Shown here: positions 23,701 to 26,574 of the stretch, in pieces
Position numbering within the stretch: position 1 is the stretch's first letter
Layout: every line of letters starts with the position of its first letter
NCBI GenBank assembly: GCA_014377845.1
Contig: JACMOV010000224.1
Location: forward strand, 26,404 to 90,403
Direction of reading: 5' to 3'
Source: Herminiimonas sp.
Lineage (GTDB): Bacteria; Pseudomonadota; Gammaproteobacteria; Burkholderiales; Burkholderiaceae_D
DNA: 64,000 nt
Notes under the pieces: model-generated
Databases searched by the model: none
Told to the model about the DNA's origin: nothing
What the model saw: the letters and a program-made list of their open reading frames with translations, nothing else
Translations under genes and position numbers: made by a program

Positions 23701-24574
23701 GATTGGGCAGGCCGGCATTCGGATAGATGCTGACGAAGGTGTCGGCGATCTTCGACAGTTCCTCCGCATAGGGGCGCATCAGCGCTGCACCGAGCGCGCA
23801 ATTCAGGCCGACGGTCAGCGGGCGCGCATGCCGGACCGAATTCCAGAACGCCGGTACGGTCTGCCCCGACAGGATGCGGCCGGAGGCATCGGTGACGGTG
23901 CCGGAGATCATGATCGGCAGGGTCTTGCCGGATTCCTCGAAAAACTGGTCGATCGCAAACAGCGCTGCCTTGCAATTGAGCGTGTCGAAAATCGTCTCCA
24001 CCAGCAGCACGTCGGCACCGCCTTCGACCAGGCCGCGAGTTTGCTCCAGGTACGCCGCCACCAGCTGGTCGAAGGTGACATTGCGCGCAGCCGGATCGTT
24101 GACGTCGGGCGAAATCGACGCGGTCTTCGGTGTCGGCCCGAGTGCGCCGGCGACGAAGCGCGGCTTGTCCGGCGTCGAATACTTGTCGCAGGCAGCCCGT
24201 GCCAGGCGTGCGGCGGCGACGTTCATCTCATAGGCGAGCTCGCCCATCTGGTAATCATCCTGCGCCACCGAGGTCGCACCGAAGGTATTCGATTCGATCA
24301 GGTCGGCGCCGGCGGCCAGGTACTGTTCGTGGATTTCGCTGATGATGTGCGGCTGCGTCAGGCACAGCAACTCGTTGTTGCCCTTGACGAAAACTTCCTT
24401 GCCGGGCGGCGCGAAATCGGCAAAGCGCGTACCGCGATAGTCTGCTTCCGACAGGTGGTATTGCTGAATCATCGTGCCCATCGCGCCATCGAGAACGAGG
24501 ATGCGGCGCGCGAGCAGGTCACGCAGGATGGATTCGGTAGTCGACATGCTCGAAGGTACGGCGTCGCGTTTCAT
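20780..24574 (-). CDS. metH: Cobalamin-dependent methionine synthase
   Basis: Full-length enzyme of 1264 residues, transferring the methyl group of methyltetrahydrofolate to homocysteine through B12. Domains in order: homocysteine-binding barrel (about 10-335) with zinc ligands Cys259, Cys324 and Cys325 (GGCCGTTP), pterin-binding barrel (about 360-630), B12 cap and cobalamin domain (about 660-900) with the base-off ligand His790 in GDVHDIGKN, and the AdoMet-binding reactivation domain (about 930-1264) with [13 protein letters not shown]. The ATG at 24574 has GGAA 6 nt upstream; ATG 24547 ([11 protein letters not shown]) is an alternative. Expression is probably controlled by the SAM-II-like leader directly upstream. 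Confidence 0.97.
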
Positions 24575-24583
24575 GAAAATTCC

Positions 24584-24620
24584 AAAAAAATAACCCGGAA
24601 CTGCGTGAGCGGGGCCGGGT
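24584..24620 (-). terminator. Intrinsic terminator in the metH leader
   Basis: On the minus strand the stem ACCCGG/CCGGGT (24615-24620 with 24593-24598) encloses CCCCGCTCACGCAGTT and is followed by TA and a run of seven U residues (24584-24590), ending 10 bp before the metH ATG. Its position between an aptamer-like sequence and the start codon indicates premature termination control. Confidence 0.75.
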
Positions 24621-24629
24621 CATTCCGCG

Positions 24630-24712
24630 AGCCGCTTTAGCAGTATTTTTAAGTGGGACTGGACCCTGGCGCCCGCAAGCTGGTTTGACTGGGAAATCAA
24701 ATCGGCGCCGGC
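24630..24712 (-). promoter_or_regulatory. SAM-II-type riboswitch candidate upstream of metH
   Basis: Read on the minus strand, stem P1 is GGCGCC (24704-24709) paired with GGCGCC (24668-24673). The 5' strand is followed by GATTTG (24698-24703) and the 3' strand preceded by GCTTGC (24675-24680); TTAAAAAT (24645-24652) and GCTAAAG (24635-24641) come next. These are the conserved SAM-II blocks in the right order, and UUGC can pair with GCUAA as the pseudoknot. Extra small hairpins TTTGA/TCAAA and GGG/CCC sit in the loops, as in long-loop variants. AGCGG at the aptamer 3' edge (24632-24636) can pair with CCGCT (24608-24612), sequestering the terminator's 5' arm, so ligand binding should favour termination. 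Confidence 0.7.
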
Positions 24713-24786
24713 AAATTATACGGTAAAACCGGCGGTCGATTGCCACTGCTGGCGGTATCGCAGGCGCAGCGCCCCGCCCCGGCAGA

Positions 24787-25776
24787 CTATGTAAATCTGC
24801 CGCCATCGAGCGCGAAGCCCTTGATGAAATCGGTATCGGCCAGCTTTTTTGCGCCCGGTTTCTGTAGTGCCGTCGCCCGCAGGACGCTGGCATCCTGGCC
24901 GGCGCCGCAGGCGATCAGGACGCCGTGCTCGGCGTCGGCCGAAAGCACCGTACCGGCCGGGATGGTCGCATCGCGGCTGCCGGCAACGCCGGCCAGCGCG
25001 TGCGCATCCCATATTTTCAGGATGACGTCGTTGAAGTGCGCGCTCGCCCCCGGGAACGGGTTGAAGGCCCGAATCCGGCGCGCCACGACGTCTGCCGGCA
25101 GCAGGAAGTCGAGTGTACCTTCCTCCTTCAGGATCTTGGCGGCATACGTCACGCCGTCCGCCGGCTGCGGCGTTGCGGGCAAGCGTCGTTCGGGATGGTC
25201 GGCCAGGTTGCGCAGGCTGTCGACGATCATCCGCCCGCCGAGCGCGGCGAGCCGGTCGTGCAGGCTGGCGGTGGTGTCGTCGGCCAGGATCGGCAGCGTC
25301 TGCATCGCCAGCATCGGCCCGGTGTCCAGGCCGGCGTCCATCTGCATGATCGTGATGCCGCTTTCGCTATCGCCGGCCTCGATCGCGCGGTGGATGGGGG
25401 CGGCGCCGCGCCAGCGCGGCAACAGCGATCCGTGGATGTTGATGCAGCCCAGTGGCGGGATGTCGAGCACGCTCTGCGGCAGGATCAGGCCGTAGGCGGC
25501 GACCACCATGACATCATGCGGCGTCGAGTCGAGCAGCGCATGCGCCGCCGCGGCTTCCTCGGGATACTTGCCGTCCATACGCAGCGAGGTCGGCTGCGCC
25601 ACCGGGATGCCGTGCGCCAGCGCGAATTCCTTGACCGCAGACGGATGCAGCTGCATGCCGCGTCCGGCCGGGCGATCGGGCTGGGTCAGAACGAGGACGA
25701 TCTCGAAGCCGGCCGCGTGCAGTGCCGCCAGGGCGGTCGCTGCAAAGGCCGGTGTACCGGCGAAAATGATTTTCAT
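24787..25776 (-). CDS. fmt: Methionyl-tRNA formyltransferase
   Basis: Protein of 329 residues that formylates initiator Met-tRNA using 10-formyltetrahydrofolate. It shows the N-terminal [13 protein letters not shown], the catalytic block [17 protein letters not shown] (conserved Asn and His), the Asp in [10 protein letters not shown], and the C-terminal OB-type domain. The start at ATG 25776 is the family N-terminus; an upstream in-frame start would add a proline-only tract from the intergenic region and is rejected. It lies 92 bp downstream of def on the same strand, the usual def-fmt pair; the usual third partner rsmB is elsewhere (57.5-58.8 kb). Confidence 0.96.
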
Positions 25777-25868
25777 GGAGGGCGATCCGTGGGCTACGGG
25801 CGGTGGCGGTGGCGGTGGCGGGGGTGCGGGGAGCGGACGTGCCGCGCGGCGCAAGGCGGGCCGAGGGA

Positions 25869-26396
25869 TCAGCCGGTGCGGCTGCGCTCGCGGTTCAGCT
25901 CACGCTCTTCCTTGAGCATTTTCGCCTTGATGCGGTTGCGCTTGAGCGGCGACAGGTAGTCCACGAAGACCTTGCCCATCAGGTGATCCATCTCGTGCTG
26001 GATGCATACGGCCAGCAAACCATCTGCTTCCACTTCGAAAACCACGCCATCTGCGTCGAACGCGCGCGCCTTGACCCGCGCCGGCCGTTCCACGCCGTCG
26101 TAGATGCCCGGCACCGACAGGCAGCCTTCGTCATAGACGATGCGTTCCTCGCTGGTCCACACCAGTTCGGGGTTGACGAAGACCTTGAGGTCGCTGCGGG
26201 TTTCGGAGGTGTCGATGACGATGATCCGCTCATGCACGTCCACCTGCGATGCAGCCAGACCGACGCCAGGTGCGTCGTACATCGTGTCGGTCATGTCGGC
26301 GACGAGCTGCTTGAGGCGGGCGTCGAAAACGCTGACGCTTTTCGCAATCTTGTGCAAACGGGGATCGGGATAGCGAAGAATCGGAAGGAGTGACAT
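25869..26396 (-). CDS. def: Peptide deformylase
   Basis: Protein of 175 residues, an Fe2+/Zn2+ hydrolase removing the N-formyl group from nascent proteins. All three family motifs are present: GVGLAASQ (44-51), EGCLSVP (90-96, Cys92 metal ligand) and HEMDH (134-138). The start [11 protein letters not shown] at 26396 has a GGAG ribosome-binding site; an upstream ATG at 26414 adds only MLHKSR. It is upstream of fmt, and divergent from the LysM-domain gene across about 180 bp that must hold both promoters. Confidence 0.97.
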
Positions 26397-26574
26397 ACGA
26401 CTTTTGTGCAACAAGGCAACAGTGTAAGGGAGTGTTTATCTTGCTAGTTCAATGATATATGGGCAAAATTTGATGCGATTTGACAAGAGTTGTTGCGCTT
26501 GAAGTGTGCGCGCTGACAACAAGTTGTGGCATCGTTTCCATTATGTTTCCCAGGCCACGCTCACCGGACAAACC

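Follow-up and report, generated by a model that had tools for sequence, protein, structure and literature searches.

Riboswitches and leader elements described upstream of methionine genes

The SAM-II riboswitch (Rfam RF00521) is described in its founding paper as a P1 helix and a pseudoknot P2 built around a GAUUUG/GCUUGC/UUAAA/GCUAAAG core, with a promoter directly 5′ of P1, a terminator after P2, and methionine genes downstream (Corbino 2005, PMC1273637). Other proteobacterial lineages are mentioned in the same paper, Bordetella bronchiseptica appears in the legend of its Figure 2, and SAM-II in betaproteobacteria is already on record (PMC1273637, PMC2704228). The metH leader analyzed here, located in a 64-kb stretch of DNA (64,000 nucleotides; hereafter the window) from an Oxalobacteraceae-group genome, shares this core, structural outline, promoter and terminator placement, and association with methionine genes. 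Unlike RF00521 members, it carries hairpins of 7 bp in loop L1 and of 3 bp following P1, lies upstream of metH, and scores 11.4 bits versus a gathering cut-off of 36 bits, a value that is a detection threshold and not a structural feature of the SAM-II class. Judging from sequence comparison and folding, this leader is very probably a SAM-II-class riboswitch, predicted to act as a SAM-responsive kinetic terminator switch that turns metH OFF.

Another described system, the metXZ element, occupies the leaders of betaproteobacterial metX and metZ genes and comprises six conserved regions, a pseudoknot formed by regions 1-4 and 2-6, and a downstream terminator (Leyn 2014, PMC4239095). The passages of that report on the element propose no ligand, count one copy per genome, make no link to SAM-II, and do not name metH as a target. 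Gene context, terminator, and pseudoknot outline are all alike in the element studied here, whose relatives precede metX and metZ. We infer that the metXZ element is the same element, given the context, the outline, and the shared core as set against the textual description of the metXZ element.

Three further families were relevant for comparison. The SAM-V core superimposes on that of SAM-II and has a 3-bp P3 helix after P1, as in the window, but SAM-V is a translational riboswitch (PMC6061858). The family RF01726, SAM-II long loops, is by its name a SAM-II with longer loops and was reported from Bacteroidetes and marine samples (PMC2864571). The candidate Bp2_Cand287 was found upstream of methionine genes (PMC3521395), and the Rfam family RF02424 (Bp2_287, "Burkholderia sRNA") is named after it. 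Among the matches listed in our literature searches, which covered titles, the starts of abstracts, and passages, the metXZ element or RF02424 was nowhere tied to SAM-II, and SAM-II at metH in betaproteobacteria was not described.

The metH leader contains the blocks of a SAM-II aptamer

The leader is carried by the minus strand, flanked by fmt and metH, and measures 146 nt from the TATAAT box (24720-24715) through the last base before the metH ATG, located at 24574 (Table 1). From the position of this box, the transcript is expected to begin close to the 5′ end of the aptamer. The initial annotation had placed six SAM-II blocks in a given order on this strand, and all of them were found by direct reading in that order and at those places, as were the terminator and its run of seven T residues. 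This run had been put 10 bp before the ATG; it is indeed close to the start codon, but the spacing is nine bases. Immediately 5′ of metH and in the same orientation are fmt, encoding Formyl_trans domains, and def, at window positions 24790-25854 and 25869-26414.

Table 1. Features of the metH leader and its downstream gene (window coordinates).
Feature	Position	Strand	Basis or remark
-10 box TATAAT	24715..24720	-	Direct reading; 6 nt upstream of P1
GGCGCC, first copy	24709-24704	-	Direct reading
P1 5′ strand GCGCC	24704..24708	-	Pairs with 24669-24673
GATTTG/GAUUUG, third strand of the SAM-II core	24698..24703	-	Invariant in alignments A1 (n = 36) and A3 (n = 47)
L1 hairpin UUUGAUU/AGUCAAA, metH-specific insertion	24684..24701	-	Overlaps the third strand; mean pair probability 0.95
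GCTTGC/GCUUGC, pseudoknot P2 5′ strand	24675..24680	-	Invariant in A1 and A3
GGCGCC, second copy	24673-24668	-	Direct reading
P1 3′ strand GGCGC	24669..24673	-	Covariation alignment
L3 hairpin GGG/CCC, immediately 3′ of P1	24655..24666	-	Fold prediction; position of SAM-V P3
A-rich strand TTAAAAAT (DNA), UUAAAAAU (RNA), 5′ of P2	24645..24652	-	Aligns with UUAAAcAA of RF00521
GCTAAAG/GCUAAAG, pseudoknot P2 3′ strand	24635..24641	-	Invariant in A1 and A3; includes the U expected to pair with the SAM adenine
Antiterminator strand ACUGC-UAA-AGCGG (predicted)	24632..24644	-	Duplex energy versus shuffles
Antiterminator partner CCGCU-CAC-GCAGU (predicted), within the terminator loop	24600..24612	-	Duplex energy, folding
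Intrinsic terminator	24584..24624	-	Arms 24624-24615 and 24598-24589, loop 24614-24599, T7 24590-24584
metH, cobalamin-dependent methionine synthase, 1264 aa	20780..24574	-	ORF; five Pfam domains, full MetH

Intermediate sequences connect the leader to accepted SAM-II riboswitches

A gathering-level Rfam scan of the whole window returned no match. In a permissive scan of 501 bases, RF00521 (SAM_alpha) reached 11.4 bits (E = 7) on the 3′ half of the element only, and RF02424 had no match in the metH leader. An RF00521 search of the source genome likewise found nothing. The initial annotation had taken the lack of a covariance-model hit as evidence against its proposal, and no gathering match is what we obtained with Rfam; a better fit to an SAH or other aptamer, which it had also counted against itself, did not emerge from the scan. 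At E ≤ 10, the leader was matched by none of the models for SAH, SAM-V, SAM-SAH, and SAM-II long loops (RF01726), and these four identities were set aside on this basis. We read the RF00521 miss as intolerance of that model to the two loop insertions. As the Rfam scan alone gave no usable answer, intermediate sequences were needed to link the leader to SAM-II.

A BLAST search with the leader in 98 genomes of the same family gave matches with E values of 2.8e-7 or better in 36 genomes, own genome included. One of these matches, in genome G021, is a metX leader, and weaker matches to the core occurred at other sites in several of the same genomes. We extracted 49 elements, 34 before metH and 15 before metX, with downstream genes labeled from protein motifs that we take to be diagnostic; family-model checks of these labels covered one MetX, one further MetH, and the window MetH. 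Alignment A1 retained 36 of the 49 elements (26 metH and 10 metX), the remaining 13 having been dropped for very long loops or near-duplication. The series GCGCCGAUUUGA ... AGCUUGCGGGCGC ... AAAUNCNGCUAAAGCG is common to the metH and metX sets, GAUUUG, GCUUGC, AAAU, and GCUAAAG are invariant throughout A1, and the 15 metX copies carry the same core as the metH copies. Scanning named genomes with a metH-type pattern yielded 23 records, 18 of which belong, by title or genus, to the Oxalobacteraceae (Noviherbaspirillum, 7; Herminiimonas, 3; Lacisediminimonas, 2; Keguizhuia, 1; "Oxalobacteraceae," 5). The other five are Paucimonas, filed under Burkholderiaceae, and four unclassified Burkholderiaceae/Burkholderiales bins.

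At E ≤ 0.01, model R1, built from the extracted elements with the window included, had matches in 209 of the 300 genomes searched in the order. Many of the R1 matches listed are compact (53 to 60 nt), and those that were fetched mostly lie before metZ, metX, metH, or metK. O-succinylhomoserine sulfhydrylase was the best family for 6/6 MetZ-like products tested, three over the cut-off and three below it, the latter being proteins cut by the end of the locus. Genes 3′ of the relatives also include metF; metN was the best family for one such gene product, with a score under the cut-off. RF00521 itself scored over its own cut-off at these sites in 4/13 such loci found with R1, and in 6/20 loci sampled from the window's family and more broadly from the class.

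Model R2 was made from 47 sequences of other families (alignment A3), none of them from the window's family; its members were collected with R1, which includes the window, so that R2 is independent in sequence, not in ascertainment. R2 matched the window at 24632-24712 (81 nt) with 55.1 bits (E = 6.8e-15), the next-best match in the 64 kb having 10.1 bits (E = 0.33), with E values that are rough owing to a short calibration. It also recovered the RF00521 site in 30/30 loci that RF00521 had retrieved from other classes of the phylum (two families supplied 23 of these), with E values from 1.2e-10 to 4e-4. A further set of 20 RF00521-found loci from more families gave 17 matches, with L177, L183, and L185 missed. 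Since R2 finds RF00521 loci and RF00521 finds related loci, the link between the window element and accepted SAM-II riboswitches runs both ways. At phylum level, 299 genomes were searched with RF00521, including at least four from the window's family; 64 had a match over the cut-off and 75 a match of any strength, none of these 75 being of the window's family. R2, at E ≤ 0.001, matched 96 of the 98 family genomes.

Compensatory changes support P1, and the P2 core is invariant

Covariation was evaluated in alignment A5, which was fitted to P1 and whose 89 sequences represent the window's order as well as other classes. In this alignment, 99.3% of the P1 cells are paired and changes on both sides occur in four of the five pairs, one of which goes from C-G to U-A in 30/89 sequences. 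The joint covariation score for P1 and P2 was 0.216 versus 0.096 in shuffled alignments, with 0/500 shuffles as high, and slid versions of the alignment scored far lower. None of the 500 shuffles reached the observed number of cells paired or of cells changed on both sides, while 95/500 reached the count of pairs with two-sided changes and 274/500 that of pair types. In the P2 core, UUGC with GC(U)AA, the four pairs form wherever the letters are present, with one gap among the 89 sequences. These pairs never vary; of the two outer P2 pairs, one is broken in 40 and the other in 24 of the 89 sequences. Covariation is therefore no test of the P2 core, a conserved, predicted pairing, and the expectation that related leaders would show compensatory changes was borne out at P1. 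In unconstrained folds, P1 had a probability of only 0.15 to 0.73.

In SAM-V, a U in the P2 3′ strand pairs with the adenine of SAM, and U residues of the third strand contact the ligand region (PMC6061858). By our mapping of positions between the two RNAs, these ligand-contact residues would have equivalents in the metH leader.

Two hairpin insertions characterize the metH form

In all 39 long-L1 metH leaders, UUUGA of the third strand is paired with UCAA in the L1 hairpin; 5 of these leaders were fetched with a pattern requiring TCAAACC and the other 34 through their similarity to the window leader. The sixth pair of this hairpin is U.G in 33 leaders, C-G in 2, and U-A in 4, and an exact TATAAT stands 6 to 8 nt before P1 in 39/39. 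UCAA was found in 0/12 long-L1 metX leaders of the family, in 11 of which the predicted hairpin starts after GAUUUGA, and four metH leaders from other families lacked the L1 insertion when analyzed with the same script. If the pairing faces of the third-strand U residues serve a triplex as in SAM-V, the L1 hairpin and the ligand-bound state would be mutually exclusive. The second insertion consists of 3 bp directly 3′ of P1, in the position of SAM-V P3. The L3 loops fold better than shuffles (p ≤ 0.05) in 18/39 metH leaders, and L3 varies freely across the 26 metH leaders of A1, in which the core is invariant. As far as searched, this metH form, with an L1 hairpin over the expected ligand-contacting UUU strand and a hairpin resembling SAM-V P3, is new. 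The suggestion that SAM-II at metH in a betaproteobacterium would be a notable variant holds for the metH form with its extra hairpins, but not for the lineage, as SAM-II was known in betaproteobacteria (PMC1273637, PMC2704228).

These same features could be taken to mean that a SAM-II fold is used here for another ligand, such as SAH, methionine, or a cobalamin-related metabolite, which we consider improbable. The idea arises from the L1 hairpin, which masks the U strand expected to contact the ligand, and from the metH context, metH being a recycling gene. An altered SAM-II-like core is also present at metK in the same genome, and metH of Comamonadaceae is part of the SAH riboswitch regulon (PMC4239095). 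Nevertheless, GAUUUG, GCUUGC, and GCUAAAG of the leader are the same as in most RF00521-found loci of A5, and this speaks against another ligand, as does the lack of any SAH, SAM-V, or SAM-SAH match in the leader reported above.

A predicted antiterminator would compete with the metH terminator

The initial annotation had proposed that AGCGG (24636-24632) pairs with CCGCT (24612-24608). The two are complementary as claimed, and ACTGC (24644-24640) and GCAGT (24604-24600) extend the antiterminator beyond what had been recognized, so that ACUGCUAAAGCGG (24644-24632) pairs with CCGCUCACGCAGU (24612-24600) through ten bp around a 3x3 internal loop. This duplex has an energy of -14.1 kcal/mol versus a shuffle mean of -7.2 (p = 0.005, the minimum attainable with 200 shuffles). 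The accompanying claim that CCGCT lies in the 5′ arm of the terminator, which the pairing would hide, was ruled out by folding, as CCGCT sits in the terminator loop (24614-24599). The antiterminator partner is one base away from the terminator 3′ arm, a geometry in which both helices could presumably not form fully at the same time.

Folding of nascent RNA to 24599 gave the antiterminator a probability of 0.95 to 0.96; in RNA to 24594, it was only 0.20, other pairings having replaced it. In the full-length RNA, the terminator had a probability of 0.97 without any lock. Because the terminator is favored at equilibrium, any antitermination would depend on kinetics. When P2 is locked in the fold, the antiterminator is lost by construction. 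In the mechanism that we propose, low SAM would leave the emerging ACUGCUAAAGCGG able to pair with CCGCUCACGCAGU ahead of synthesis of the terminator 3′ arm, and metH would be transcribed. At high SAM, P2 would be stabilized and GCUAAAG locked, withholding the antiterminator strand. With the antiterminator blocked, the terminator would fold and transcription would halt before metH, the decision falling within a narrow kinetic window. Without ligand, the UUU strand would be held by the metH-type L1 hairpin, which would thereby compete with SAM binding. The terminator-based, SAM-II-type OFF switch of metH that had been predicted initially is supported by homology, P1 covariation, gene context, and antiterminator complementarity.

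The antiterminator was also assessed in related leaders. The terminator script found a terminator in 26/32 metX and 26/27 metZ elements and none in 16/113 elements overall. The antiterminator test covered the 97/113 elements with a script-found terminator, some of them with clumsy bounds, and reached p ≤ 0.05 in 20/35 metH, 16/26 metZ, 4/26 metX, and 5/10 other leaders. The test is thus weak in metX, and 15/35 metH leaders miss this threshold. These results were counted against our preferred explanation, as were the terminator at 0.97 in the absence of a lock and the probability of 0.20 in RNA to 24594, the last of which slightly lowered our confidence.

The lack of a significant antiterminator test in 15/35 metH leaders and the predominance of the terminator at equilibrium would also be expected of an aptamer relic, in which the ligand response was lost in the metH context and a constitutive terminator or attenuator was left behind. 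We regard such a relic as very improbable, given that the 26 metH leaders of A1 keep an unchanged core but a freely varying L3, which argues for selection on the aptamer, and given that the TATAAT spacing and the L1 hairpin are kept in 39/39 long-L1 leaders. The palindromic GGCGCC directly after the -10 box might suggest that the blocks are mimicked by a DNA operator for a SahR- or MetR-type methionine regulator, with no RNA element involved, but this is hardly credible in view of the compensatory changes in P1, including the C-G to U-A change in A5, the 81-nt span, the variable hairpins, the downstream terminator, and the relatives that score as RF00521.

A divergent SAM-II-like element precedes metK

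A second SAM-II-like element is present in the source genome outside the window (L194:1381-1437, minus strand; G000:C53:2580-2636), before a metK gene identified with TIGR01034 over its cut-off. We treat it as a lead, separate from the metH finding. In its core, GAGUUAA and CAACUUGC replace GAUUUGA and CAGCUUGC, the coupled core changes of the metK form being GAUUUGA to GAGUUAA and CAGC to CAAC. Two relatives of this element had no Rfam match at E ≤ 5. Model R3, built for the metK element, had matches at E ≤ 1e-9 in 82 of the 98 genomes of the family, and 22 of the 23 metK-type copies that were fetched precede metK; a metK-type pattern applied to 150 genomes of the order gave ten matches, all before metK. 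Changes on both sides occur in three of the five P1 pairs among 24 distinct sequences. In 21/22 metK copies, a seven-base stretch shortly 3′ of the element can pair, at 6 or 7 of its positions, with bases immediately 5′ of the ATG, counted with the best window taken; the bases 5′ of the ATG usually include those of the Shine-Dalgarno sequence. Both sides of this pairing have changed together in L220 and L224.

Distribution of related elements

RF02424 (Bp2_287) covers related leaders upstream of methionine genes, and it lies on the strand opposite the riboswitch in 4/4 loci matched (L101, L043, L044, and L209). The match in L101 (126-298, minus strand) has 203.9 bits and is opposite to both the riboswitch and metZ, and those in L043, L044, and L209 are below the cut-off. 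This "sRNA" family appears to model the antisense strand of a SAM-II leader, which is new as far as searched.

We put forward, tentatively and as a proposal that may well prove wrong, that an extensive SAM-II regulon, for the most part unannotated, exists in Burkholderiales and many other lineages of the same class, with three architectures within one pathway, namely, a compact terminator type, the metH form, and the metK form. In this proposal, the L1 hairpin of the metH form would raise the SAM threshold through folds that exclude each other, and the metK form would probably mask the Shine-Dalgarno sequence and might have a changed ligand preference. If this is true, the metK form would directly govern SAM synthesis. 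Apart from this proposal, the SAM-II reading of the metH leader gives the metXZ-type leader a testable candidate ligand, SAM. The Rfam SAM-II model misses members of its class, R1 having matched 209/300 genomes of the order and RF00521 64/299 genomes of the phylum. The metH form offers a natural case of a hairpin hiding the strand of an aptamer expected to contact the ligand, in which the tuning of the threshold in a small pseudoknot switch is directly testable.

Class-wide, R2 matched 146 of 276 genomes at E ≤ 0.001, many of them beyond the window's order. In the loci fetched, genes downstream include metZ and metF, and MetN and cystathionine gamma-synthase occur as best families below their cut-offs. 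Ten R2 matches were found in a single genome, G861. The compact element at L096:925-980 (minus strand) stands before a gene with no evident link to methionine, whose best family is threonine ammonia-lyase; this assignment is below the cut-off, and the protein is cut by the end of the locus.

More than one element can also occur at a single locus. L074 has two SAM-II-like elements about 1 kb apart in one genome, at 474-541 and 1501-1567. At L081, L084, L086, L104, L205, L206, L207, L208, L209, and L213, a second, divergent element follows 37 to 249 nt on. These second copies contain CAACUUGC in 7/10 cases and end with GCUAAAGCGU in 10/10. R3 scored the second copy higher than the first in 6/8 loci tested and lower in two, L081 and L205. 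The arrangement is reminiscent of the SAM-II/SAM-V tandem.
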